A stretch of 64,000 nucleotides of DNA from Saprospiraceae bacterium (lineage in GTDB: Bacteria > Bacteroidota > Bacteroidia > Chitinophagales > Saprospiraceae). Shown piece after piece: positions 14,108-28,717 of the stretch (position 1 is its first letter; each line of letters opens with the position of its first letter). Location: NCBI GenBank assembly GCA_020848695.1, contig JADLHT010000044.1, forward strand, positions 60,514 to 124,513. Direction: 5' to 3'. A program made the translations under genes and the position numbers. Under the pieces are notes generated by a model. That model was not told the DNA's origin and searched no databases. It worked only from the letters and a program-made list of their open reading frames with translations.

Positions 14108-14222
14108 TTCATTTATATGTTTTTAACTTGTATACTTATTGATTGAATCCTAAATCTTAAAAAATGTTTAAAGTTTTTAATAAATACTATCTTCAAAATG
14201 AAGAGGTTTTCAGGATTACTTA

Positions 14223-14230
14223 TAATTTTG
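14223..14230 (+). promoter_or_regulatory. -7 box (TAATTTTG) of the act-cox operon
   Basis: TAATTTTG matches TAnnTTTG in the 192-bp gap before actA. It lies inside the ORF-track version of actA (start 14198) and 69 nt upstream of the ATG at 14300, so it supports the later start. No good -33 element was seen. Confidence 0.4.
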
Positions 14231-14299
14231 CGGCAACCAATTTGTCTTCTTTCAAATAAAACAAATCTAAATTTGTATTTCACTTTATATCAATTAGTT

Positions 14300-15709
14300 A
14301 TGTTAAGGATTCGCATAAACAGTTCGTTTTTGTTGATTCTGCTTACCGGCTTTATACTTCAGGCAGCCCCAAGCATTGAATCTGGAAAAACTCTTTTCAA
14401 AAATAATTGTGCCAGTTGTCATAACAAAAATATGAAAGATAAGCTTACTGGTCCGGCACTCGGAGGAGTTCAAGATCGTTGGGCAGCTTATCCTAAAGAA
14501 GATTTAGTCAAATGGATACAAAACTCTCAGAGTCTAATAGCTGCGGGACATCCTGAAGCAACTAAACTATGGGCTGAATGGAAGCCTACACAAATGCAAG
14601 CATTCCCTAGTTTAACCGATGAAAATGTTGAAAGTATTTTAATGTATATTGATTGTACTTTCAAGGGGACTTGTGGTGGAGCAAGTGTTGCCGTTGTTCC
14701 AGGTGCTAATGCCGCCGGTTCTAAAAATGAAGGAATTTCACCAATTTGGATATATGTAGCTTTTGGAATTCTACTAATGCTTGCACTTTTTCTGTGGAAT
14801 GTCATGTCAGACATGAGCTATACCAGAAAACTTGCACTAGGTGAGAAAAATGCGGTTAGACAAAGCATTTGGGACAAACTTTCAAGCAAAGGAGTGATCA
14901 GTCTAGTCCTATTTGGCTTGATATTATTTGGAGGGTATACTACAGTAAATAATGCTATTTCTTTAGGGCGACAACAAAATTATGCACCTGATCAACCCAT
15001 AAAATTTAGTCATGAAATTCATGCTGGAGTAAATAAGATAGATTGTAATTATTGTCATGATGGCGCAAGAAGATCAAAGCAATCCATAATTCCCGGGGCA
15101 TCTACATGTATGAACTGTCACACTGCAGTTAAAAAAGGTACACAGACAGGAACTTCTGAGATTACTAAAATATATACATCTATAGGATTTAATCCAATTA
15201 CGGGTAAGTATATCGAGAATTACGATCAACTCGAAGCTTCTGATATAGAGAAAATTTTTAAAAAATGGATTGAATTTAATTATAAGGAAGATAATGAGCT
15301 AAAAGAATTATCAAACGAAGCACAAACTATAGTTGATAATCAATGGAAGGATATTGTTTCAAGTATGACAGGCCCAAACAAGCCTAAAATACAGGGGCCT
15401 ATCGAATGGATTAGGATTCATAATTTACCGGATCATGTTTATTTTAATCACTCTCAACACGTTACAGTAGGAAAAATTGCTTGTCAAAAATGTCACGGAA
15501 ACGTTGAGGAAATGGCAACCGTTCGGCAATATGCACCATTATCTATGGGCTGGTGTATCAACTGTCATCGTCAGACTGATGTAAAATTTGCGGACAATAA
15601 GTATTATGATAGCTATAAGATTTATCATGATGAACTTAAAGCAGGAACCCGAACAAGCGTAAAAGTAGCCGATATTGGAGGTTTAGAATGTCAAAAATGT
15701 CATTATTGA
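14300..15709 (+). CDS. actA: Alternative complex III subunit ActA, multiheme cytochrome c
   Basis: ActA carries the heme chain of alternative complex III, the menaquinol:cytochrome c oxidoreductase. From ATG 14300 the protein is 469 aa with signal peptide MLRIRINSSFLLILLTGF; the extra residues from 14198 do not look like a signal peptide. There are six CxxCH motifs: CASCH (Cys37) in an N-terminal class I cytochrome c domain, then after a membrane helix (around residues 150-175) CNYCH, CMNCH, CQKCH, CINCH and CQKCH in the pentaheme domain. Characterised ActA is described as pentaheme, so the N-terminal heme domain is extra or lineage-specific. It is the first gene of the respiratory operon. 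Confidence 0.93.
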   Translation: MLRIRINSSFLLILLTGFILQAAPSIESGKTLFKNNCASCHNKNMKDKLTGPALGGVQDRWAAYPKEDLVKWIQNSQSLIAAGHPEATKLWAEWKPTQMQAFPSLTDENVESILMYIDCTFKGTCGGASVAVVPGANAAGSKNEGISPIWIYVAFGILLMLALFLWNVMSDMSYTRKLALGEKNAVRQSIWDKLSSKGVISLVLFGLILFGGYTTVNNAISLGRQQNYAPDQPIKFSHEIHAGVNKIDCNYCHDGARRSKQSIIPGASTCMNCHTAVKKGTQTGTSEITKIYTSIGFNPITGKYIENYDQLEASDIEKIFKKWIEFNYKEDNELKELSNEAQTIVDNQWKDIVSSMTGPNKPKIQGPIEWIRIHNLPDHVYFNHSQHVTVGKIACQKCHGNVEEMATVRQYAPLSMGWCINCHRQTDVKFADNKYYDSYKIYHDELKAGTRTSVKVADIGGLECQKCHY

Positions 15710-15729: not shown

Positions 15730-18700
15730 ATGAGAAAAATAGATCAACAAGTTTGGATTAGTCAAGAAGACCTTACCAATGATCCTGCATTAATAAATCA
15801 ATTAGATTCAGAAAGATCTGATATTAATATCTCTTCTCTTTTAGAAGATGATCAAACAGTAGGAGTTCAAGCTAATCGTAGAGATTTCCTAAAATTATTA
15901 GGCTTTGGATTTACAGCTGCTACTTTAGCGTCTTGTGAAACACCTATAAAAAAGGCTATTCCGTACACAGTAGCAACAGATGAAATTATCCCGGGGATCG
16001 CTAATTATTACGCTTCAACATTTGTAAATGGAGGAGATGTATGTCCGGTTCTGGTAAAAACCAGAGAAGGAAGACCTATAAAGATTGAAGGAAATTCACT
16101 TTCCTCTATGACTCAGGGGGGTACCTCTTCGAGAGCACAGGCATCAGTACTTAGTTTATATGATATTAGCAGACTAAAAAATCCAGGAACGATATCTGGA
16201 GATTCAATAACAGAAATGTCATGGGCTGATCTTGATGCAACTTTAGGATCAAAATTAAACACAGGTTCAAGAATTCGAATTGTCAGCTCAACGATTATGA
16301 GCCCATCAGCTAAGAAGACATTGCGCGAGTTTACAACTCAATTTCCAAATACAAAACATTTAATGTATGATCCGATCTCAAGTGCGGCTTTATTACAGGC
16401 AACTCAAAATTGTTTTGGAATAAAGGCAATTCCGGATTACAAATTTGATCAAGCGGAGACTATTGTAAGTTTTAATGCGGACTTTCTCGGAACATGGATT
16501 TCTCCAGTAGAGTATGCAGCTCAATTTGTTAAAGGAAGAAAGGTTAATCCTCAGAATCCGAAAATGAATCGTCTTTTCCAAGTTGAGTCTCAGATGTCAC
16601 TTACAGGATCCAACGCAGATCACAGAATATTGGTCAAACCATCTGAACAAGGTTCCTCAATTATAGCTCTGTACAATTTAATTGCATCTAAAACTGGTGC
16701 ATCAAGTATTTCTGGAGGAGAGGTCAATGAAAAAGCAAAAGCAATGCTTTCCAAAGCTTCCGATATGTTAATTGCTAATAAAGGAAAATCCTTGGTTGTT
16801 TGCGGAAATAATAATCTTGACCAACAAGTTATAGTATATGGAATTAATCAGCTATTAGGTAATATTGGTACAACCGTAAACTTTAACAGAGTATCCTATC
16901 AAAGACAAGGAAACGAAACTGAAATCAACGGTTTGATTAGCGAAATGTCTTCCGGTCAGGTTGATGTTTTAATTATTTGGAATGCAAATCCTTGTTATGA
17001 TCTTCCAATGGCAAATGCATTTAAGGATGCAATGTCGAAAGTGAGCACTCGAATCAGTTTAAATTATATTATGGATGAGACAACGACAAATTGCTCTCAT
17101 TCTGCACCCGTTCATCATTATTTGGAGTCTTGGGGTGATGTTGAAGCTAAAACCGGGATTTTTTCATTAATTCAACCTACCATAAATCCAATTTTTAATA
17201 CCCGACAAGCGGAGCATTCTATTTTGACCTGGTGTAAATCACAAAAACTGGATACAAAAGCAGAACAGCCATATTATGAATATTTAAAATCATCTTGGAA
17301 AGAAATGTTTCCTTCACTAAGTTGGGATGAAACATTGCACAATGGGGTATATGAAGTACCTAGTGGTAATGCACTTAATTCCAACTTTAATGGTAATCCT
17401 GCTTCGAGCGCATCTAAAATTAATTCAACTTCGAACTCAGGACTAGAGTTAAGTTTTACTGAATCAGTTAATATTGGTGGTGGTCAATATGCTAACAATC
17501 CATGGCTTCAAGAAATCCCTGATCCAATTTCAAGATGTTCTTGGGGAAATCATGTAGGAATACCAATCACATTTGATGGCGACAGAAGATTTATAGCTTT
17601 AGAAAATATTGAAACAGATGGTACGATCGTAAATCTTGTCATAAATGGACAGAACACTGGTATTTCATCTATTAGACAATTTGGACAAATGCAAGGTACA
17701 CTTTCAGCAGCGTTAGGGTATGGAAGAATTCAAGGAGGCGTTTGTGGAACGGGTATTGGAGTTAACCTTTACCCTTATTTAAAAACTGATGAGAATGGAT
17801 TTACACAATATTACATTGATGGGATTGACTTAAAAAATGCACAAGAAGGAATTGAAAAATCTTTTGCCTGCGTTCAGCATCATCACACTATCGGCGTTAC
17901 TGCAATTGAAAAATCATCAGGTAGCAAGATAAATGCAGATGAAGCTGCACTTGTTGATGACTTTTTCAAACCTATTATTAAAGGATATCAAGGCTCGTTG
18001 ACAGATAGATCTATTTTGAGAACTTCAAATCTTTCTAATCTGAAGGAAAATTTAGAGCATAATAAAGAGAAAAGAGAAGAAGCACAGAATTTAAATTCAA
18101 AGTCATTATATCCAGGTTTTGATTATAATTATAATTCTGGACATCATTGGGGACTACACATCGATATGAATTCATGTATTGGATGTAGTTCATGTGCAGT
18201 GGCTTGTATGTCCGAAAATAATGTACCAGTTGTGGGCAAACATGAAGTTGCAAGACATCATGAAATGACATGGTTGAGAATTGATCGTTATTATTATGGA
18301 GATGTAGAAAATCCAAGTGTTGCTTATCAACCAATGATGTGTCAACATTGCAATAGTGCACCCTGTGAAAACGTTTGCCCGGTAAATGCAACTAATCACT
18401 CTTCGGACGGATTGAACCAAATGGCTTATAATCGTTGTGTCGGAACACGATATTGTGCAAACAACTGCCCTTATAAGGTTAGGAGATTCAATTGGTATGA
18501 CTATACCGAATCTGATCTTTTTCCTTGGAATTCAAGAATGATGGCTTCTGAAAAGGATAAGCCATATTATGCGGAAAATCTTGTTAGAATGGTATTAAAT
18601 CCAGACGTTACGGTTAGGTCCAGAGGAGTTATTGAAAAGTGTTCTTTTTGTATTCAAAGAATTCAGGAAGGCAAGTTAAATGCTAAAAAAGAAAATCGCC

Positions 18701-18909
18701 AATTACATGCTAATGAGGTAAAATCTGCTTGTCAAACAGCTTGTCCGACCGGAGCAATCACATTTGGAGATATGAATAATCCTGAAAGTGATCTAAGTAA
18801 AAAATTAAATAATCCATTGAATTATATTGTACTGGAGGAAATCGGTGTAAAGTCTGTGGTTAATTATTCCATGAGAGTAACAAACAAAGATGAATCCATT
18901 GAATCTTAA
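15730..18909 (+). CDS. actB: Alternative complex III subunit ActB, Fe-S/molybdopterin-like
   Basis: ActB is a 1059-aa fusion of a molybdopterin-oxidoreductase-like part, which binds no Mo cofactor in known ACIII, and a C-terminal ferredoxin-like part. A Tat motif RRDFLKLLGFG near residue 50 is followed by LASC, a lipobox, so the protein is probably Tat-exported and lipidated. Cysteine clusters CIGCSSCAVAC, CQHCNSAPCENVCP, CVGTRYCANNCP and CSFC...CQTACP fit one 3Fe-4S and three 4Fe-4S clusters. It transfers electrons between quinol oxidation in ActC and the hemes of ActA. It starts 20 nt after actA. Confidence 0.96.
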   Translation: MRKIDQQVWISQEDLTNDPALINQLDSERSDINISSLLEDDQTVGVQANRRDFLKLLGFGFTAATLASCETPIKKAIPYTVATDEIIPGIANYYASTFVNGGDVCPVLVKTREGRPIKIEGNSLSSMTQGGTSSRAQASVLSLYDISRLKNPGTISGDSITEMSWADLDATLGSKLNTGSRIRIVSSTIMSPSAKKTLREFTTQFPNTKHLMYDPISSAALLQATQNCFGIKAIPDYKFDQAETIVSFNADFLGTWISPVEYAAQFVKGRKVNPQNPKMNRLFQVESQMSLTGSNADHRILVKPSEQGSSIIALYNLIASKTGASSISGGEVNEKAKAMLSKASDMLIANKGKSLVVCGNNNLDQQVIVYGINQLLGNIGTTVNFNRVSYQRQGNETEINGLISEMSSGQVDVLIIWNANPCYDLPMANAFKDAMSKVSTRISLNYIMDETTTNCSHSAPVHHYLESWGDVEAKTGIFSLIQPTINPIFNTRQAEHSILTWCKSQKLDTKAEQPYYEYLKSSWKEMFPSLSWDETLHNGVYEVPSGNALNSNFNGNPASSASKINSTSNSGLELSFTESVNIGGGQYANNPWLQEIPDPISRCSWGNHVGIPITFDGDRRFIALENIETDGTIVNLVINGQNTGISSIRQFGQMQGTLSAALGYGRIQGGVCGTGIGVNLYPYLKTDENGFTQYYIDGIDLKNAQEGIEKSFACVQHHHTIGVTAIEKSSGSKINADEAALVDDFFKPIIKGYQGSLTDRSILRTSNLSNLKENLEHNKEKREEAQNLNSKSLYPGFDYNYNSGHHWGLHIDMNSCIGCSSCAVACMSENNVPVVGKHEVARHHEMTWLRIDRYYYGDVENPSVAYQPMMCQHCNSAPCENVCPVNATNHSSDGLNQMAYNRCVGTRYCANNCPYKVRRFNWYDYTESDLFPWNSRMMASEKDKPYYAENLVRMVLNPDVTVRSRGVIEKCSFCIQRIQEGKLNAKKENRQLHANEVKSACQTACPTGAITFGDMNNPESDLSKKLNNPLNYIVLEEIGVKSVVNYSMRVTNKDESIES

Positions 18910-18930: not shown

Positions 18931-20358
18931 ATGTCAGGAGGAGTTGTTGCGCCGGTAAGAAGACCTTTAATCGAAGGGCATAAGACCTATCACCAGATAA
19001 CTGAAGATTTATGTTCTCCAACAGAGAAGGCACCTTCAAAAGCTTGGATTATAGCTTTCATCATATCTGTTTCTGTACTTGCATTTGGATTGTTCTGTAT
19101 TTTCTGGACTATCTGGATGGGAATTGGAACTTGGGGATCTAACAGAACGATTGGTTGGGCATACGATATTACCAATTTCGTATGGTGGATTGGTATTGGA
19201 CATGCAGGAACACTTATTTCTGCAATCTTACTTCTATTTAGGCAACGCTGGCGAACCGGTGTTAACCGTGCAGCGGAAGCCATGACCATATTTGCGGTAA
19301 TTTGTGCTGCTTTATTCCCTGCTATTCACGTAGGAAGAATTTGGGTTGTATTTTACTTTTTTCCATATCCCAATACAAGAGGTTCGATTTGGCCTAATTT
19401 TAATTCGCCTTTGTTATGGGACGTTTTTGCCATATCAACCTATTTCTCAGTTTCACTTTTATTCTGGTACACAGGATTGGTTCCCGACTTTGCCAGTATT
19501 AGAAACAGAGCCAGCGGTCTAAGAAAAAAAATATACAATTCCTTATCATTCGGTTGGACTGGTTCGGCTAAACATTGGCAACGTTGGGAATCTCTTTCTT
19601 TAGTTTTGGCAGGATTATCCACACCCTTAGTTCTGTCAGTTCACACTATAGTTAGTTTTGATTTTGCTACTTCTGTCATTCCAGGCTGGCATACAACAAT
19701 CTTTCCTCCATACTTTGTTGCTGGTGCGATATTTTCAGGTTTTGCTATGGTTCAGACCCTTATGGTAATGACCCGAAAAATTCTAAAACTACAAGAGTAT
19801 ATTACGATTGAGCATATTGAATCCATGAATAAAGTTATTCTTGTAACCGGTACTATAGTTGGTGTTGCTTATTTGACCGAACTTTTCATAGCATGGTACT
19901 CAGGTTATGTTTATGAGCAATTTGCTTTTTTCAATCGAGCTACAGGAATATATTGGTGGTCCTATTTTGGGATGATGACTTGTAATGTAATATCTCCTCA
20001 AATTTTTTGGGTTAAGAAACTCAGGAGGAGTGTTTTTGTAACATTCTTTATGAGTATATTTGTAAATATCGGAATGTGGTTTGAAAGATTTGTAATCATT
20101 GCGACAACTTTAGCAAGAGATTATCTTCCTTCATCCTGGTCATACTATCGACCTACCTGGGTTGAAATTGGAATTTTTATAGGTACAATTGGTCTTTTCT
20201 TTACATTTTATATGATTTTTACCAGAGTAGCTCCCGTAGTTGCTATTGCAGAAATCAAACACATCTTAAAAGTCGGAGGAGATCAATATATTGGCGAGAA
20301 CGCTACTCATAAAAATCAACACGATACTCATTCATTATCATCAACTAATCATCATTAA
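18931..20358 (+). CDS. actC: Alternative complex III subunit ActC (NrfD-like)
   Basis: This 475-aa polytopic membrane protein of the NrfD/PsrC family has about ten hydrophobic segments and an N-terminal cytoplasmic stretch (RRPLIEGHKTYHQITEDL). It holds the menaquinol oxidation site of ACIII; the family's quinol-site residues are expected in the first helical bundle (FVWWIGIGHAGTLISAIL). The C-terminus is His-rich (HKNQHDTHSLSSTNHH). The gene lies 21 nt after actB and 23 nt before actD, in the standard order. Confidence 0.96.
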   Translation: MSGGVVAPVRRPLIEGHKTYHQITEDLCSPTEKAPSKAWIIAFIISVSVLAFGLFCIFWTIWMGIGTWGSNRTIGWAYDITNFVWWIGIGHAGTLISAILLLFRQRWRTGVNRAAEAMTIFAVICAALFPAIHVGRIWVVFYFFPYPNTRGSIWPNFNSPLLWDVFAISTYFSVSLLFWYTGLVPDFASIRNRASGLRKKIYNSLSFGWTGSAKHWQRWESLSLVLAGLSTPLVLSVHTIVSFDFATSVIPGWHTTIFPPYFVAGAIFSGFAMVQTLMVMTRKILKLQEYITIEHIESMNKVILVTGTIVGVAYLTELFIAWYSGYVYEQFAFFNRATGIYWWSYFGMMTCNVISPQIFWVKKLRRSVFVTFFMSIFVNIGMWFERFVIIATTLARDYLPSSWSYYRPTWVEIGIFIGTIGLFFTFYMIFTRVAPVVAIAEIKHILKVGGDQYIGENATHKNQHDTHSLSSTNHH

Positions 20359-20381: not shown

Positions 20382-20903
20382 ATGAGAAAATATAATGTAG
20401 ATGTTGTTTATGGAATTTATGATGACGAAGAGAAATTGCTTCATGCAGTCCGTCAAGCCAAAAGCAAGCATTTAGAAATATTTGATGTTTACTCTCCGTT
20501 CCCTGTTCATGGAATGGATAATGCATTGGGTCTGAGTGAATCAAGATTGCATATTGCCGGCTTCGTGTATGGTGCCATTGGAACACTTGTTGCTTTTCTA
20601 GGGATGACCTGGATATTTACAAGGGATTGGCCAATAATTTTCGGAGGTAAACCTTATTGGGCAGTTCCTTCCTTTATTCCAATTACCTTTGAATTGACTG
20701 TTCTTTTTTCTGCCTGGGGCATGACCCTAACTTTTTATACTATTTGTGGATTGTGGCCGGGTGTTGAAAATCCACAATTAGATTTACGAACTACAGATGA
20801 TAAATTTTGTCTGGCTTTTAATACTAAAGATGTAAGTATTTCCGATGCAAATAGTTTTTTTTCTGAGTCAGGAGCTGAAGAAGTTAACACAAAATCCATC
20901 TAA
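20382..20903 (+). CDS. actD: Alternative complex III subunit ActD (DUF3341)
   Basis: This 173-aa protein has a soluble N-terminal alpha/beta domain (residues 1-55, including DVYSPFPVHGMDNALGL) and two membrane helices (about 60-80 and 100-125). This is the DUF3341 architecture of ActD. It has a structural role in ACIII and binds no cofactor. The PFPVHG motif is characteristic. It ends 2 nt before actE. Confidence 0.95.
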   Translation: MRKYNVDVVYGIYDDEEKLLHAVRQAKSKHLEIFDVYSPFPVHGMDNALGLSESRLHIAGFVYGAIGTLVAFLGMTWIFTRDWPIIFGGKPYWAVPSFIPITFELTVLFSAWGMTLTFYTICGLWPGVENPQLDLRTTDDKFCLAFNTKDVSISDANSFFSESGAEEVNTKSI

Positions 20904-20905
20904 CC

Positions 20906-21661
20906 ATGAATTACCAATTTCTTTTTTTAATAACCATAGCAATTCTTTCGAAATCTTGTTCTCCAGCGGAAGGCAATTTTCCCGGAAGCGAGTACATGAT
21001 GGATATGGGACATGCAGTGTCTTATGAAGCTAACTCTCAACAATACTATTCATACCATCATTGGGACGGAATAGATGATTATCGAAAGTATGCAATTCCT
21101 AGAAATGCTGTGAAAGGCACGATTGCTCGTGGAGCAGTTATTTCTAAGCTGACTGATTCATTAAATACAATTTCATACACTCCAAGTGGACATAGAGATT
21201 ATCTCTATTCTAACACAGAAGAAGAAAGAATCAGAGCAAGCAAAGAAATCACTACAAATCCTATTGCTTTATCAAAAGAAGCTCTGGATCATGGTAAGTC
21301 CAATTATATGATTTACTGTGGAATCTGTCATGGTGAAAAAGGGGATGGATCTGGATATTTAGTAAGAGATGAGGGTGGAAAATACCCTGCACAACCCGCT
21401 AATTTTTTGACTGACGAATTTATTTCAGCCACTGAAGGTCGATTTTATCATGGAATAATGTATGGTAAAAATGTTATGAACGGCTATAGTAATAAGTTAT
21501 CATATTCTGAAAGATGGGAAGTTATTCATTTTATAAGATCTCTACAGGCAGCATCAAAAAATTTGAAATATACGGAAACTGAAAATACATTTTCTGCTTC
21601 TAGAGCTGCAGTAAATTCAAATACTACACAAGCTTCCGAAACGAGTACTATCAAAAAATAA
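20906..21661 (+). CDS. actE: Alternative complex III subunit ActE, monoheme cytochrome c
   Basis: This is a 251-aa lipoprotein cytochrome c. The signal peptide ends in a lipobox-like ILSKSC (Cys18). The N-terminal region contains the ActE hallmark YMMDMGHAVSYEA and PRNAVKGTIARG. The heme site is CGICH near residue 146 with a downstream Met ligand candidate in the MYGKNVMNGYS segment. It accepts electrons from the ActA heme chain and passes them on towards the oxidase. The C-terminal ~30 residues are low-complexity. Confidence 0.95.
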   Translation: MNYQFLFLITIAILSKSCSPAEGNFPGSEYMMDMGHAVSYEANSQQYYSYHHWDGIDDYRKYAIPRNAVKGTIARGAVISKLTDSLNTISYTPSGHRDYLYSNTEEERIRASKEITTNPIALSKEALDHGKSNYMIYCGICHGEKGDGSGYLVRDEGGKYPAQPANFLTDEFISATEGRFYHGIMYGKNVMNGYSNKLSYSERWEVIHFIRSLQAASKNLKYTETENTFSASRAAVNSNTTQASETSTIKK

Positions 21662-21688: not shown

Positions 21689-22972
21689 ATGAATTCTGAA
21701 CACATTCAATTACCAAATAAAGACAAAATAATTCTTTCCATATTGGGAATTATCGGTTTAATTTCATTACTTTATATTGGAGCTAATGATGATCTTGGGC
21801 ACACAAGACTTTGGACAAACCTGCTTCATAATAGTGTCTACTTTACCTTAGTAGCCCTTATGGCTATATTCTTCTTGTGTGTAAATGTCACAGCCTATGC
21901 AGGTTGGGATGTTGTATTTAGAAGAGTCTGGGGCAGTATGTCTTATTTTCTAATAGTTGGTCTGTTGTTGATGGGAATTATTGCGTTGGGAGTTTATTTT
22001 GGATGGCACAATCTTTATCATTGGGCAGATCAACACACTGCTGAAACCGATACAATAATAAAAGGAAAATCAGGATTCCTTAATAAAAATTTTTACACAA
22101 TAGGGGGATTGGGCTTTATCGTTCTATGGTTCTTTTTTGCTAAGAAAATGAGAGATTACACAATTGCAGAGGATGATCATGGAGATGGACGATGGGCTCA
22201 TTATAAATCTATGAAGTTCTATGCTGCACTGTTTTTACCTATCGCTGGATTTACCAGTGCCGCTGCAGTATGGTTGTGGATTATGTCTGTCGATCCGCAT
22301 TGGTATAGCACAATGTTTGCATGGTATGCAACTGCTTCTTGTTTTGTAAGCATGATTGCATTAACTATTCTTATTTTAATTTATCTTAAGAGCAGAGGGT
22401 ATTATCATGGAGTAACTTCGGAACACTTTCACGATTTAGGTAAATATATGTTTGCCTTTACTATTTTTTGGACTTATCTGTGGTTTGATCAGTATATGTT
22501 AATATGGTATGGAAACATTGGTGAGGAGACCATATATTTTCAGACTAGAATCCAAGAATATCCAATCTTGTTTTATGGCAATCTAGTTATTAACTTTGTT
22601 TTGCCTTTTTTAATTTTAATGAGAAATGACACTAAAAGAAAATATGGAACTTTAATTATTGTAGGTATTCTTGTTTTTGTGGGTCACTGGATCGATCTTT
22701 TTCAAATGATTAAGCCCGGAACTTTACATACTGCCATGGAATTGGGTGATCATGCATCAGCAGCAGCAACACATGGACATGAGGCAGGAACACATGGAGC
22801 TCATGGCCATGAGTTTAAAATGGGCTTTACTATTCCCGGGATACCAGAAATTGGGTTAATGTTAGGATTTGTAGCATTATTTGTAGCAACAACCTTGCAT
22901 TTTCTATCTAAAGCGTCATTAACTCCGAAACAAGATCCATTCTTACAGGAAAGTTTACATCATCATGTTTAA
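21689..22972 (+). CDS. actF: Alternative complex III subunit ActF
   Basis: This 427-aa polytopic protein with about ten helices is related to ActC but lacks an active quinol site in known complexes. It shows typical ActF sequence such as YAGWDVVFRRVWGSMSYF and SVDPHWYSTMFAWYA. A His/Gly/Ala-rich loop near the C-terminus (ATHGHEAGTHGAHGHE) precedes the last helix and could bind metal, which is inference. It ends the act set, 27 nt before coxB. Confidence 0.95.
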   Translation: MNSEHIQLPNKDKIILSILGIIGLISLLYIGANDDLGHTRLWTNLLHNSVYFTLVALMAIFFLCVNVTAYAGWDVVFRRVWGSMSYFLIVGLLLMGIIALGVYFGWHNLYHWADQHTAETDTIIKGKSGFLNKNFYTIGGLGFIVLWFFFAKKMRDYTIAEDDHGDGRWAHYKSMKFYAALFLPIAGFTSAAAVWLWIMSVDPHWYSTMFAWYATASCFVSMIALTILILIYLKSRGYYHGVTSEHFHDLGKYMFAFTIFWTYLWFDQYMLIWYGNIGEETIYFQTRIQEYPILFYGNLVINFVLPFLILMRNDTKRKYGTLIIVGILVFVGHWIDLFQMIKPGTLHTAMELGDHASAAATHGHEAGTHGAHGHEFKMGFTIPGIPEIGLMLGFVALFVATTLHFLSKASLTPKQDPFLQESLHHHV

Positions 22973-22999: not shown

Positions 23000-24505
23000 A
23001 TGACTTCATTAATTATAATTCTATCTGTAATACTACTTTTTGTAGTTCTTATTCAGATTGCGAAGATTTACGAAATTGCAGAAGAAATAAAAGGAGAAGA
23101 ATATTCTGAAATTACCTCAGCAGATTCCAATTCAAAGGGATTACTAATATTTTGCGTTGTATTTTTTGCTTCTTTTATCTGGGGCTGTTTGTATTATGCA
23201 AATTATATGTTGGGATATGGGCCTTTGAAATCTGCTTCTGCACATGGAGGAGCAATTGACTCCATGTTTAATGTTACAGCATTTTTTACAATAATTGTAT
23301 TTGTCATTTGTCATATAGCATTATTTTGGTTTGCCTATCAATTTAGATATAGACCGGGAAGAAAAACACTTTTTATTCCTCATAATGATAAATTAGAGTT
23401 AATCTGGACAGGAGTTCCGGCCTTCGTTATGGTTATTCTGGTTGTAAAGGGATTAATAGCCTGGAATGAGATTATGGCCGACACAAAAAAAGGAGAAGAA
23501 CATATATCCATTGAAGCAACTGCTTGGCAATTTGCATGGAATTTAAGATATCCCGGAGCTGATAGCGAACTTGGGGTAAAAGATTTTAGGTTAATCAAAC
23601 CTGGAATTAATGAGTTAGGGCAGGATTGGAATGATGAAAGAAATTTAGATGATTTCAATGCGGATGAATTAGTATTACCTAAAGGGAAAAAAGTTAGAAT
23701 CAGTATTGTAGCCAGAGATGTTTTACACGCATTTTATCTCCCTCATTTCAGAGTAAAAATGGATGCTGTTCCGGGGATTCCAACCTATTTTGTTTTTACT
23801 CCTACTAAGACTACTGAAGAATTCAGACAAGAACTTAAAAAATATAAAGAATATCAAGGTCCGTCGGATCCTTCTGATCCAAATAGTCCTCCTAAATGGA
23901 AAGCTTTTAATTATGAATTGGCGTGTGCAGAATTATGTGGAAAAGGACATTATAGTATGCGAAGATTGGTTAAAGTAGTTAGCCCTGAAGAATATGAAAA
24001 ATGGTTAACAACTCAAAAATCTTATTATTTAAGCAGCATACGAAATACTGAAGAAGACCCGTTCAAAGGCAAACCAATTGGAATTGAATTGAAATCAGAA
24101 GCAATAAAACTTGAGAGTGCGCTTGCCAAAGCTTTGGATACAAGCAACACCAACTTGGCTGACAGGACTTTAAATCTTAATAATATTTATTTTGAAACCG
24201 GATCTGCGACTTTATCGAAAGAATCAGAGATGGCTTTAAATATTCTTAAAAATGCTTTTGAAAAATATCCAAAATTAAAAGTTGAGATTTCTGGACATTC
24301 AGACAATGTAGGTGATGCAAATGTAAATCTGATCTTGTCGCAACAAAGAGCAGCAGCTGTTAAAACCTATTTGAAGAATAATGGAATTGATGAATCAAAG
24401 ATTTCAACCAATGGATATGGAATGAGCAAACCGATCGAGTCCAATGAAAAAGAAGAGGGGAGAGCTAAAAACAGAAGAATAGAATTCAAAATATTATCAT
24501 TTTAA
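23000..24505 (+). CDS. coxB: Cytochrome c oxidase subunit II fused to an OmpA domain
   Basis: The protein has 501 aa, far longer than a plain subunit II. Four hydrophobic segments lie in residues 1-155 and the cupredoxin CuA domain follows. CuA ligands are intact: His in VLHAFYLPHF, then CAELCGKGHYSM with Cys309, Cys313, His317 and Met320. After a linker (about 335-389) comes a complete OmpA C-terminal domain (about 390-501): IYFETGSATL, ISGHSDNVGD, LSQQRAAAV and GRAKNRRIEF. The peptidoglycan-binding Asp/Arg positions appear preserved. This should place a peptidoglycan anchor on the periplasmic side of the oxidase, where caa3 oxidases carry a fused cytochrome c. No frameshift or stop separates the parts. 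Confidence 0.95.
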   Translation: MTSLIIILSVILLFVVLIQIAKIYEIAEEIKGEEYSEITSADSNSKGLLIFCVVFFASFIWGCLYYANYMLGYGPLKSASAHGGAIDSMFNVTAFFTIIVFVICHIALFWFAYQFRYRPGRKTLFIPHNDKLELIWTGVPAFVMVILVVKGLIAWNEIMADTKKGEEHISIEATAWQFAWNLRYPGADSELGVKDFRLIKPGINELGQDWNDERNLDDFNADELVLPKGKKVRISIVARDVLHAFYLPHFRVKMDAVPGIPTYFVFTPTKTTEEFRQELKKYKEYQGPSDPSDPNSPPKWKAFNYELACAELCGKGHYSMRRLVKVVSPEEYEKWLTTQKSYYLSSIRNTEEDPFKGKPIGIELKSEAIKLESALAKALDTSNTNLADRTLNLNNIYFETGSATLSKESEMALNILKNAFEKYPKLKVEISGHSDNVGDANVNLILSQQRAAAVKTYLKNNGIDESKISTNGYGMSKPIESNEKEEGRAKNRRIEFKILSF

Positions 24506-24525: not shown

Positions 24526-26370
24526 ATGTCATCAGTACATCATCAAGAACAAGATCAACTAATTGAGAAGTATGGTTATGATGATCATTTTCATGAACAT
24601 CATGAAGGTGATAAGTTTCAATTTAACTTTCTAACAAAATATATTTTTAGCATGGATCATAAGATTATTGCTAGACAGTTCCTGTTTACAGGAATTTTCT
24701 GGGCAATAATTGGTTCGGCTATGTCAATTATTTTTAGATTGCAATTGGGCTTTCCTGACGCTAGCATTGCATGGCTAAAACCACTATTGGGGAAATGGAT
24801 AGTGTTAAACGATGCCGGTGTAGGAACTTTAGAACCAGAATTTTATTATGCTCTCGTAACTATGCATGGGACCATAATTGTATTTTTTGTTCTTACAGCC
24901 GGATTAAGTGGTACATTTAGTAATTTTCTGATCCCTCTGCAAATTGGTGCTAGAGATATGGCTTCGCCATTTTTGAACATGCTTTCCTATTGGTTTTTCT
25001 TCTTGTCGAGTGTAGTTATGTTTTATTCGTTATTTCTAAGTACAGGACCCTTTTCAGGAGGCTGGACTGCATATCCTCCATTAAGTGCCTTGCCACAAGC
25101 TTCCATAGGATCAGGTGCCGGAATGACTTTATGGCTGGTTTCTTTAGCGTTATTTGTTGTTTCTGTTCTACTCGGTGGTATGAACTATATCACTACAGTT
25201 TTAAATCTTAGAACAAAGGGAATGAGTTTGTGGAGAATGCCTTTAACCATTTGGGCATTTTTAGTTACAGCTATTATTGGACTACTTTCATTTCCTGTAC
25301 TATTCTCAGGATTTTTACTTCTTATTTTTGACAGAAGCATGGGGACAAGTTTTTATTTGTCTGACATTTTTGTAAATGGAATGGCGCTTGACAGAATAGG
25401 AGGTTCGCCAATACTTTATCAGCACATTTTTTGGTTTCTTGGACATCCGGAGGTTTACATTATAATTTTACCTGCTATGGGAATTGTATCAGAGGTGTTA
25501 TCTGTACATGCCAGAAAACCCATATTTGGTTATAGAGCAATGGTTTATTCAATTCTTGCCATCGCCTTCCTATCCTTTATTGTTTGGGCTCACCACATGT
25601 TTATGTCTGGTGTAAATCCATTTCTATCTAATTTCTTTGTTGTATTTACTTTGATTATTGCTGTTCCCTCAGCGGTTAAAGTATTCAATTGGATTAGTAC
25701 CTTGTATGGGGGAAACATTAGGTTGAACACTCCAATGTTATTTTGTATAGGTTTTATTTCGATGTTTATTTCTGGAGGACTTACAGGAATATTTTTAGGA
25801 AATTCAGCAATTGATATTCAGCAACACGATACTTATTTCGTGGTTGCCCATTTTCATATTGTAATGGGTGTAGCTGCATTCTTTGGAATGTTTGCAGGAG
25901 TATATAATTGGTTTCCAAAAATGTTTGGAAGATACATGAATGACACATTAGGCAAAATACATTTCTGGGTTACTCTGATTGGTGCGTACGCAATTTTTGG
26001 CCCAATGCACTTCTTAGGTATGGCTGGAGTTCCCAGACGATATTATTTATTTGACAAATTTGATGCCTTTAGTGGTTTCGATACTATGAATAAATTTATT
26101 ACGATCGCAGCGATCATCAGTTTCTTTGCGCAAATTGTTTTTGTGATTAATTTCTTCTGGTCAATGTATAAAGGCAAACGGGTGACTTCTCAAAATCCTT
26201 ATGGATCGAATTCATTGGAATGGACCACACCAATAGATGCTGGACATGGAAACTGGCCTGGAAAAATTCCAACGGTACAAAGATGGTCTTATGATTACGG
26301 GAAAGACGGAATTGAATTTACTCAGCAGCATGTTCCCTTACGCGAAGGTGAAACTCCAAGTGATCATTAA
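24526..26370 (+). CDS. coxA: Cytochrome c oxidase subunit I (aa3-type)
   Basis: This is the 614-aa catalytic heme-copper subunit. It contains the heme a His in TMHGTIIVFFVLTAG, the CuB/His-Tyr element GHPEVYIIILPAMG, the paired CuB His in WAHHMFMSG, and the heme ligands in QHDTYFVVAHFHIV. The Tyr in HPEVY marks it as an A-type oxidase. The His-rich N-terminus (HHEGDKF) is on the cytoplasmic side. It reduces oxygen to water with proton pumping, receiving electrons from CuA of the adjacent CoxB. Confidence 0.97.
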   Translation: MSSVHHQEQDQLIEKYGYDDHFHEHHEGDKFQFNFLTKYIFSMDHKIIARQFLFTGIFWAIIGSAMSIIFRLQLGFPDASIAWLKPLLGKWIVLNDAGVGTLEPEFYYALVTMHGTIIVFFVLTAGLSGTFSNFLIPLQIGARDMASPFLNMLSYWFFFLSSVVMFYSLFLSTGPFSGGWTAYPPLSALPQASIGSGAGMTLWLVSLALFVVSVLLGGMNYITTVLNLRTKGMSLWRMPLTIWAFLVTAIIGLLSFPVLFSGFLLLIFDRSMGTSFYLSDIFVNGMALDRIGGSPILYQHIFWFLGHPEVYIIILPAMGIVSEVLSVHARKPIFGYRAMVYSILAIAFLSFIVWAHHMFMSGVNPFLSNFFVVFTLIIAVPSAVKVFNWISTLYGGNIRLNTPMLFCIGFISMFISGGLTGIFLGNSAIDIQQHDTYFVVAHFHIVMGVAAFFGMFAGVYNWFPKMFGRYMNDTLGKIHFWVTLIGAYAIFGPMHFLGMAGVPRRYYLFDKFDAFSGFDTMNKFITIAAIISFFAQIVFVINFFWSMYKGKRVTSQNPYGSNSLEWTTPIDAGHGNWPGKIPTVQRWSYDYGKDGIEFTQQHVPLREGETPSDH

Positions 26371-26385
26371 GTTATAAAATTTATT

Positions 26386-27282
26386 TTGAATACACAAACA
26401 AAATCTATAGCCCTTAAGACCAATTCCTTTATTAAGGATTTTGGAATGTTGATTAAGTTCAAGCTTAGCTTAATGGTAGTATTTAGTTCTATGGCGACTT
26501 ATTTTATTTTTTCAGCACAGAACTTTAATACTTCTGTTTTTGTATTTCTAACATTTGGTGGAATGTTAATAACTTTTGCTGCCAATTCGTTAAATCAAGC
26601 CTTAGAAAGAGATTATGATAAGCTAATGGAACGGACATCCAATCGTCCTTTAGCATCGGGAAGAATGAATCTCTCGACTGCGGTATTAATTGCGGGTATT
26701 TGCATGATACTTGGTATTTTTCTCTTACTTGCTATAAGTCCGATTTGCGCAACTCTTGGAATGTTGAGTCTCGTGCTTTACTCTTTTATCTATACACCGG
26801 TTAAGCGATTTTCAACTCTTGCAGTTCCAATCGGAGCTATACCGGGCGCATTACCAACACTAATAGCAGCAGTTGCTGCTCAGCAAACTATAACTTTGGA
26901 AGCATTATGTTTTTTTGGAATTCAATATCTATGGCAATTTCCGCATTTTTGGGCCATTGCATTTTTAGGGCATAAAGATTACATCAATGCAGGGTTCAAA
27001 CTTATTAATGATATAGATGGGAACCCAGATCCTAAGTTTGGAGTATATTCTTCTATTTACGCCTTAATTGGAATATTTTTTTTAATACCTCTTATCCAAA
27101 TATTGACTATTAATCCAATGGTTATTGCTTTACTAATAGTTAGTATGATGCTTTTTGCTTACTATGGATGGAATTTATATCGAGTTAATAACAGAAATGC
27201 AGCAAAGAAATTGATGTACTATTCAATAATATACTTGCCTTGGATTTTTTTCTTATTCATTCTTAACAATCATTTGAATTAA
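26386..27282 (+). CDS. ctaB: Protoheme IX farnesyltransferase (heme O synthase)
   Basis: This is a 298-aa UbiA-family membrane enzyme that farnesylates heme b to make heme O, the precursor of heme A for CoxA. The Mg-diphosphate motifs are NQALERDYDKLMERTSNRP and a second DIDGNPDP region; about eight to nine membrane helices are seen. The start is a TTG at 26386; the next ATG (residue 21, in FGMLIKF) would cut into the conserved N-terminal region. No ctaA (heme A synthase) is in the window. Confidence 0.95.
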   Translation: MNTQTKSIALKTNSFIKDFGMLIKFKLSLMVVFSSMATYFIFSAQNFNTSVFVFLTFGGMLITFAANSLNQALERDYDKLMERTSNRPLASGRMNLSTAVLIAGICMILGIFLLLAISPICATLGMLSLVLYSFIYTPVKRFSTLAVPIGAIPGALPTLIAAVAAQQTITLEALCFFGIQYLWQFPHFWAIAFLGHKDYINAGFKLINDIDGNPDPKFGVYSSIYALIGIFFLIPLIQILTINPMVIALLIVSMMLFAYYGWNLYRVNNRNAAKKLMYYSIIYLPWIFFLFILNNHLN

Positions 27283-27283
27283 A

Positions 27284-27865
27284 ATGCCATTTGTTCAAAT
27301 TTTTAATAAGGAACTTGCACCCAATAAAGCACAAGCATTGAGGTTTGCGCTTTGGATTGGAATGGCAACAATTGTGATGTTTTTCGCAGCAATTACAAGT
27401 GCCTATTTAGTTAGAAAACCAGCAGGTAATTGGTATGAATTTAAATTACCTATTCAGTTTTTTTATAGTACAATAATTATATTTAGTTCATCCTTGTTTT
27501 TAGAATTATGTTACAGAAGCCTTAAAGGAAAAAATGAATCTAAATACAAACTATACTTATTATTAGCGTTTCTAACTGGAATTGGTTTTGTCATCAGTCA
27601 GATATTTGCATTTAAAAACATGGTGAATCAGGGTCTATTTATTGATCTCAATGTTTCAGTGTCATTCATTTTTGTAATTGCGGGTATGCATATATTACAC
27701 ATCTTGGGTGGACTAATTGCATATTTAATAAGTATTACAATTGCGTTTACAACTTTGTTTAAAATTGATGAATTGCGAATTTTAAAATTTGATCTATTAA
27801 GGCAGTATTGGCATTTTATTGGAATACTGTGGATTTATTTATTAGTATTTTTAATCTTACAATAA
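27284..27865 (+). CDS. Heme-copper oxidase subunit III-like protein (first copy)
   Basis: This 193-aa membrane protein with five hydrophobic segments belongs to the COX3 superfamily (ALRFALWIGMATIVMFFAAITSAYLV at the start, LRQYWHFIGILWIYLLVFLIL at the end). Bacteroidota cox operons often carry two tandem subunit III homologues, a short one like this and a longer one. It starts 1 nt after the ctaB stop. Whether it is a structural subunit or an assembly protein is not known from sequence. Confidence 0.9.
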   Translation: MPFVQIFNKELAPNKAQALRFALWIGMATIVMFFAAITSAYLVRKPAGNWYEFKLPIQFFYSTIIIFSSSLFLELCYRSLKGKNESKYKLYLLLAFLTGIGFVISQIFAFKNMVNQGLFIDLNVSVSFIFVIAGMHILHILGGLIAYLISITIAFTTLFKIDELRILKFDLLRQYWHFIGILWIYLLVFLILQ

Positions 27866-27880
27866 GAAATAATTAGAGTT

Positions 27881-28717
27881 ATGTCTTCAGAACATACAGC
27901 ACAGATACATCATTCGGAAGGAAATCATTGGAATGGAGCCAGCGAGCCTTTTAAGGCAAGTTACGGTAAACTTATGATGTGGTATTTTCTTCTATCAGAT
28001 GCTTTTACTTTTTCTGCATTTTTAATTGCTTACGGGACCTTGAGATTTAGTATGCCTACCTGGCCGGTTCCCGACTTTGTGTTTTCAGGATTACCTGGAG
28101 GCATTCATCATAAACCATTGATTTTCGTTACAATCATGACTTTTGTTTTGATAGCCAGTTCAGTGACAATGGTAAGAGCAGTACAGGAAGGTCATCGCGA
28201 AAACAAGAAAGGAGTTGTATTCTGGATGGTATTGACAATTCTAGGTGGACTAGGGTTCTTAGGTTGTCAAGCATGGGAATGGACAACTCTGATTGGAGAG
28301 GAAAAAATGTCAATTACTCGTAATCCTTTTGGGACACATACCGAAAATGGGACTTATTTGGATGGAGACGGTCATGATATAAAAGCAGGTGACTCTTTTA
28401 AAGCCGGACAATCGTATCTTATACATTATCATGACGGACAGTTCCATCCCTTAAAATTTAAAACTGAATCCGGTGATGTAAAAACGCAACAAATGGGGCC
28501 AAAATCTTTTGGCGCATTATTCTTTTTTATTACGGGATTTCATGGTTTTCACGTTTTTAGTGGAGTTTTATTTTTAATTATTATCGCTCTAAATGTGGCC
28601 AGCGGATTGTATGCAAGAAGAAATAATCATTACGAAATGGTTGAGAAAATAGGATTGTATTGGCACTTTGTCGACTTAGTGTGGGTATTTGTATTCTTGG
28701 TATTTTATTTATTATAA
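27881..28717 (+). CDS. coxC: Cytochrome c oxidase subunit III (second copy)
   Basis: This is a 278-aa subunit III. The usual helices are recognisable (KLMMWYFLLSDAFTFSAFL, FGALFFFITGFHGFHVFSGV, LYWHFVDLVWVFVFLVFYL). Between them, at about residues 140-207, is a hydrophilic insertion rich in Gly, Asp and His (YLDGDGHDIKAGDSF). Such an insertion is common in Bacteroidota subunit III. Subunit III stabilises the catalytic subunit and the oxygen channel. It sits 15 nt after the short subunit III gene. Confidence 0.94.
   Translation: MSSEHTAQIHHSEGNHWNGASEPFKASYGKLMMWYFLLSDAFTFSAFLIAYGTLRFSMPTWPVPDFVFSGLPGGIHHKPLIFVTIMTFVLIASSVTMVRAVQEGHRENKKGVVFWMVLTILGGLGFLGCQAWEWTTLIGEEKMSITRNPFGTHTENGTYLDGDGHDIKAGDSFKAGQSYLIHYHDGQFHPLKFKTESGDVKTQQMGPKSFGALFFFITGFHGFHVFSGVLFLIIIALNVASGLYARRNNHYEMVEKIGLYWHFVDLVWVFVFLVFYLL

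Follow-up and report, generated by a model that had tools for sequence, protein, structure and literature searches.

Many Saprospiraceae carry a C-terminal OmpA domain, predicted to bind peptidoglycan, on subunit II of their cytochrome c oxidase (COX2). In other lineages Pfam finds a domain of this type at the C-terminus of ActE, which is encoded two genes upstream, often where COX2 itself has none. The interpretation that we regard as probable is that a flexible OmpA leash at the C-terminus of COX2 or ActE ties the supercomplex of alternative complex III (ACIII) and the oxidase to peptidoglycan. Such tethering had been proposed in an earlier note for the window, i.e., the whole stretch of 64,000 nucleotides of Saprospiraceae DNA that was analysed. 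It is kept here as the best inference, and it is strengthened because ActE bears the OmpA domain in lineages with an unfused COX2.

The fusion gene and its protein

The fusion gene occupies positions 23000..24505 (+) of the window as one frame of 501 codons with no internal stops. Three Pfam families match the 501-aa protein above their gathering cut-offs: COX2_TM (residues 77-149), COX2 (213-263) and OmpA (PF00691, 397-492), the last with an E-value of 6e-23 and with profile positions 1-98 covered in full. The AlphaFold model, for which 66 orthologues served as input, has a mean pLDDT of 87.5 and folds into four transmembrane (TM) helices (2-31, 33-65, 83-114 and 130-158), followed by the CuA beta domain and by an OmpA domain that is predicted well. 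The protein thus begins with two extra N-terminal TM helices (residues 2-65; 23003..23194, +), which are followed by the canonical COX2 TM hairpin (residues 83-158; 23246..23473, +) and by the CuA domain (residues ~169-338; 23504..24013, +), delimited by Pfam, alignments and the model. A linker of variable sequence (residues ~339-390; 24014..24169, +), in which the model places a helix at 361-378, leads to the OmpA peptidoglycan-binding domain (residues 391-501; 24170..24502, +). The pocket alignment places the predicted pocket residues D435 and R450 of this domain at 24302-24304 and 24347-24349 (+).

The CuA ligand set of the window COX2 is complete (H243, C309, E311, C313, H317 and M320) and invariant in alignments of 15 and of 66 rows. 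In Foldseek comparisons the model matches the COX2 chains 6hu9_b, 2yev_B and 1ar1_B, and the C-terminal domain of OmpA (5wtp) with a TM-score (target) of 0.84-0.85. Pfam, ligands and model therefore agree on what the earlier note had read from the sequence, a single-frame fusion with four TM helices and a complete CuA site, and the segment 24169-24502 that it had singled out corresponds to residues ~391-501, the OmpA domain. In canonical COX2 the CuA domain is periplasmic and the C-terminus follows it; the OmpA domain, being C-terminal to CuA, should thus lie on the wall side, and this topology of the COX2 family supports the periplasmic location assumed earlier.

The NCBIfam CoxB model matches the window COX2 with 124.7 bits, short of the 147.7 bits that the model requires. 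An insertion of ~35-40 residues in the CuA domain (~267-305; 23798-23914), which precedes the CxExC motif and aligns family-wide, breaks up both the Pfam and the CoxB matches. The two extra N-terminal helices correspond to a Pfam SecG match above cut-off (41 bits) in Lewinella cohaerens (L090), which could reflect a real hairpin relative or a compositional similarity. The 501-aa translation contains no Pfam match to a cytochrome c domain and no CxxCH motif, and MotB models cover only residues ~366-499, far under their cut-offs, so that no MotB identity was found outside the OmpA domain.

The operon

The gene order around the fusion is actA(candidate)-B-C-D-E-F-cox2-cox1-ctaB-cox3-cox3, all on the + strand. 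The candidate actA (14198..15709) encodes a multiheme cytochrome c, as judged from CxxCH motifs in its translation, and is followed by actB, the iron-sulfur subunit of ACIII (15730..18909, domain search), the NrfD-like actC (18931..20358, Pfam NrfD) and actD (20382..20903, Pfam ActD, E 4e-58). The monoheme cytochrome c gene actE (20906..21661) has no OmpA domain in the window according to domain search and orthologue comparison, and actF (21689..22972) was assigned by position and similarity across loci. Downstream of the fusion lie cox1 for subunit I (24526..26370, Pfam COX1, E 4e-145), a ctaB-like gene whose operon position is conserved across loci (26386..27282) and which we take to encode heme o synthase, and two COX3-family genes (27284..28717, domain search). 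The ActB-F genes are thus co-encoded with the oxidase, and the placement of the fusion gene in an ACIII-aa3 operon, claimed earlier, is borne out by the ActB-C-D-E-F-COX2-COX1 cluster. By analogy with Flavobacterium johnsoniae, the protein would be the catalytic subunit II of an aa3-type oxidase that works within an ACIII supercomplex in the Saprospiraceae source organism. In several Saprospiraceae (L047, L144, L148, L152-L155 and L157) ActF reaches 516-565 aa and has an insertion that divides the profile match into two parts.

Distribution of the COX2 fusion

Full-length COX2-OmpA was found in 86 of 112 Saprospiraceae genomes within an order-wide sample of 349, and in 7 of the 237 non-Saprospiraceae genomes of that sample, one of these seven being truncated where its contig stops. 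Outside the family, none of 297 genomes sampled across the phylum yielded a full-length fusion. A search of 61 relatives recovered it in most Saprospiraceae genera, and the named records belong to Saprospiraceae and allies, type strains among them. The cultured carriers include Lewinella cohaerens DSM 23179, Neolewinella persica DSM 23188, N. aquimaris DSM 105137, N. xylanilytica DSM 29526, Portibacter marinus and Membranihabitans marinus. The domain, whose phylogenetic spread the earlier note had proposed to map, is dispensable: about one quarter of Saprospiraceae have no OmpA domain on COX2, and in most other Chitinophagales neither COX2 nor ActE carries one.

An assembly join or frameshift between the CuA and OmpA parts would produce the same frame by error. 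This explanation has a negligible probability, as the ~500-aa architecture is repeated in many independent assemblies, including the one-contig genome G199 and those of type strains; full-length orthologues in dozens of other genomes rule out chance or misassembly, and nothing in favour of a join was found. A 5.6 kb contig with COX2-OmpA, 54% identical to the window protein, is present in a metagenome-assembled genome titled Thermoanaerobaculia (Acidobacteriota; L070), and is probably a mis-binned Saprospiraceae contig.

The second placement on ActE

ActE-OmpA occurs in families f13 and f2, in early-branching Saprospiraceae and, outside the order, in families f125 and f115. Among 143 operons with the three genes readable, 74 have COX2-OmpA, 23 have ActE-OmpA, 46 have neither and none has both; the sample is enriched for odd cases, so these counts are not frequencies. 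The f115 locus, without a readable COX2, stands outside this count, and its ActE-OmpA copy has lost the pocket Asp. Two counted ActE-OmpA genes (L169 and L172) are broken by N runs in the assembly, which accounts for the apparent solo OmpA genes beside ActE at these loci. The gapped ActE gene of L172 has a long Ala/Lys/Glu-rich spacer that looks, from its composition, like a single helix. At another locus (L184:3163, -; genome G733), an ActE of 341 aa carries a second C-terminal cytochrome-c-like domain with a CxxCH-type motif in place of OmpA.

On a tree of ActF and the COX2 core, the three states (COX2-OmpA, ActE-OmpA, neither) need 23 changes, and parsimony assigns nine losses of the OmpA domain to COX2 and four to ActE. 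The absence of double carriers was considered as statistical proof of function and was set aside: with only ~3 COX2/ActE switches, the pair test lacks power and the exclusivity is not significant on the tree. Within Saprospiraceae the ActE-OmpA lineages branch around a nested COX2-OmpA clade, and one parsimonious reading is that the domain moved from ActE to COX2 there. For ActE-OmpA, the AU test did not reject one common origin of all the domains (p 0.57).

Repeated origin and probable donor of the domain

Scattered COX2-OmpA fusions are found in three other families, f19 (L161), f20 (L039) and f9 (L160, L159). Their OmpA domains are 72-77% identical, whereas their COX2 cores share 44-55%; between L161 and L039 the values are 77% for the OmpA domain, 44% for the COX2 core and 35% for ActF. 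The congener of L161 (L053, COX2 core 76%) has no OmpA domain, and neither do the congeners of L039 (L192, L193), of which L193 is complete and L192 breaks off with its contig close to the C-terminus of COX2. Such patterns indicate more than one independent origin of the COX2-OmpA fusion. The AU test weakly rejected one shared origin for all COX2-OmpA domains (p 0.0235), but it used 111 columns and a noisy search in which some constrained trees scored above the free tree; the case for repeated origin therefore rests on the contrast between OmpA and COX2-core identities.

The linkers of the f19, f20 and f9 fusions share the motif NG(I/V)E(N/S)KLV.FI.D....(V)DK.TWFSFDR, or one near it. The same motif recurs in DUF937-TM-OmpA proteins from the genome of L039 (L218, 441 aa, 765-2090, -) and from the window's own genome (L004, 429 aa, 529-1818, +). 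This recurrence points to linker and domain having been taken from the DUF937-TM-OmpA family, or to one fusion end having spread horizontally. Two Lewinella/Neolewinella OmpA domains are 40-45% identical to those of f19, f20 and f9, and the linker motif is absent from them. The DUF937-TM-OmpA proteins are probably a family of inner-membrane-anchored wall-binding proteins; we know of no function for DUF937.

The predicted peptidoglycan pocket and its constraint

Both D435 and R450 are kept in 83 of 83 COX2 fusions, in which the linker ahead of the domain is variable; the ActE fusions keep the Asp in 23 of 24 and the Arg in 24 of 24. The two residues are 15 positions apart, the same spacing as in what we take to be the diaminopimelate-binding pair of Acinetobacter baumannii OmpA, D271/R286. 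With the pocket invariant in the COX2 fusions and the domain well folded by AlphaFold, the predicted wall-binding site is complete, as the earlier note had supposed. Amino-acid change is faster in the OmpA domain than in the COX2 core (pN 0.22-0.27 vs 0.06-0.16), and the domain's pS of 0.63-0.83 lies far above its pN; silent sites are near saturation in this comparison, and dN/dS is not given. In genus g73 (L139, L140, L141) COX2 ends in an OmpA-like tail of ~135 aa from which the pocket residues are gone, probably a decayed fusion.

A proposed leash between respiration and the wall

In the proposed mechanism, a linker of about 40-50 residues, most of it variable, would hold the OmpA domain in the periplasm past CuA, where D435 and R450 would make a non-covalent contact with the diaminopimelate stem of peptidoglycan. 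From the conserved pocket we infer that the COX2-OmpA domain binds the wall in the cell. The supercomplex would be leashed to the wall with the domain taking no part in electron flow. Other lineages would mount this leash on ActE, a neighbouring monoheme cytochrome c subunit of the supercomplex. The spacer between core and OmpA domain measures 27-63 residues on COX2 and 36-171 on ActE, and this range of 27-171 residues suggests a leash that can reach peptidoglycan rather than a fixed ruler for electron transfer. On the earlier note's idea that the tether may set the width of the electron-transfer gap, the sequence gives no other indication. Candidate benefits are a fixed position under the wall, envelope stability, or an inner-membrane-to-wall anchor on an abundant complex.

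The last of these benefits may also be stated as an explanation of its own, in which the wall link is real and serves envelope mechanics between inner membrane and wall, the oxidase being merely an abundant anchor. It overlaps with the tether as a variant and is possible, though not likely. Placement on COX2 or on ActE would give the same mechanical link, and the donor family is itself a probable membrane-to-wall linker; against it, the placements were found on subunits of ACIII and the oxidase, the complexes covered here. The domain might instead be an assembly or docking module that binds a protein, be it a subunit of ACIII or a partner in the outer membrane. OmpA-like domains do bind proteins in some systems, e.g., YfiB, and here the domain is found on two subunits of one supercomplex, but docking has no need of the essentially invariant peptidoglycan-pocket residues, and one fusion group probably owes its module to a DUF937-TM-OmpA protein that has no link to respiration, which makes this reading unlikely.

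A near-neutral passenger, fused by chance, kept for a while and lost in many cases, would account for the patchy spread with its parsimony losses (nine on COX2, four on ActE), for the decayed remnant in g73 and for the faster evolution of the domain relative to the COX2 core. Yet a pocket-intact fusion is kept in 86 of 112 genomes of a diverse family, pN is well under pS, and the same operon acquired the domain several times and from more than one donor; we consider the passenger quite unlikely. Beyond the tether itself, we lean slightly towards a more general view, in which selection has time and again equipped the supercomplex with one peptidoglycan-binding leash, on COX2 or ActE interchangeably and from varied donors, in Chitinophagales and some relatives, so that wall-anchored respiration would be a general device.

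The usual picture of respiratory complexes is one of free diffusion or of clustering in the membrane. If the tether holds, the complex would be held under the wall instead of diffusing, and leashing the terminal oxidase to the wall, on the side where its electron donors are, would make position and mobility a selected trait. Cultured Lewinella and Neolewinella would then offer a testable case of energy metabolism physically coupled to the cell wall.

Comparison with known systems

No description of OmpA domains on COX2 or ActE was found in the open-access papers searched, and the novelty claimed earlier for the COX2 fusion stands to that extent. Literature matches for COX2 or ACIII with OmpA came down to a promoter of ompA (PMC8552683) and a methane paper on another subject. 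Each domain type is known; their combination, the alternation between COX2 and ActE and the repeated origin are new as far as found.

In Flavobacterium johnsoniae, ACIII and cytochrome aa3 act together as a supercomplex with the same ActA-F and aa3 partners as the window operon (PMC8552683). Loss of ActE there leaves electron transfer to aa3 intact and slows growth (PMC8552683), so a non-redox role for ActE is possible, as ActE-OmpA also suggests. That paper makes no mention of a wall-binding domain, and all its passages that name OmpA concern the promoter (PMC8552683).

The MotB/PomB stators, Pal and the C-terminal domain of OmpA have the same OmpA-type fold and pocket as COX2-OmpA, but their hosts are stators or outer-membrane proteins, whereas the host here is a redox enzyme subunit. 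The caa3-type oxidases, to which the earlier note had compared the fusion, likewise extend subunit II into the periplasm after CuA (2yev_B). The likeness holds for the position of the C-terminal extension and fails for its type, which is cytochrome c in caa3 and a predicted wall-binding domain without a heme motif in the window COX2.

The nearest solved precedent is PsaB of the Gloeobacter violaceus photosystem I (PDB 7f4v), likewise a core electron-transfer membrane subunit with an OmpA-like end. Residues 754-864 of its 872-residue chain match the window OmpA domain (E 3e-13), and the published model covers only residues 3-727 (PMC9000952), as would be expected if the missing end were a flexible leash. 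PsaB belongs to a photosynthetic complex of one cyanobacterial lineage, whereas COX2-OmpA belongs to a respiratory oxidase, extends across a bacterial family and has a counterpart on a second subunit.
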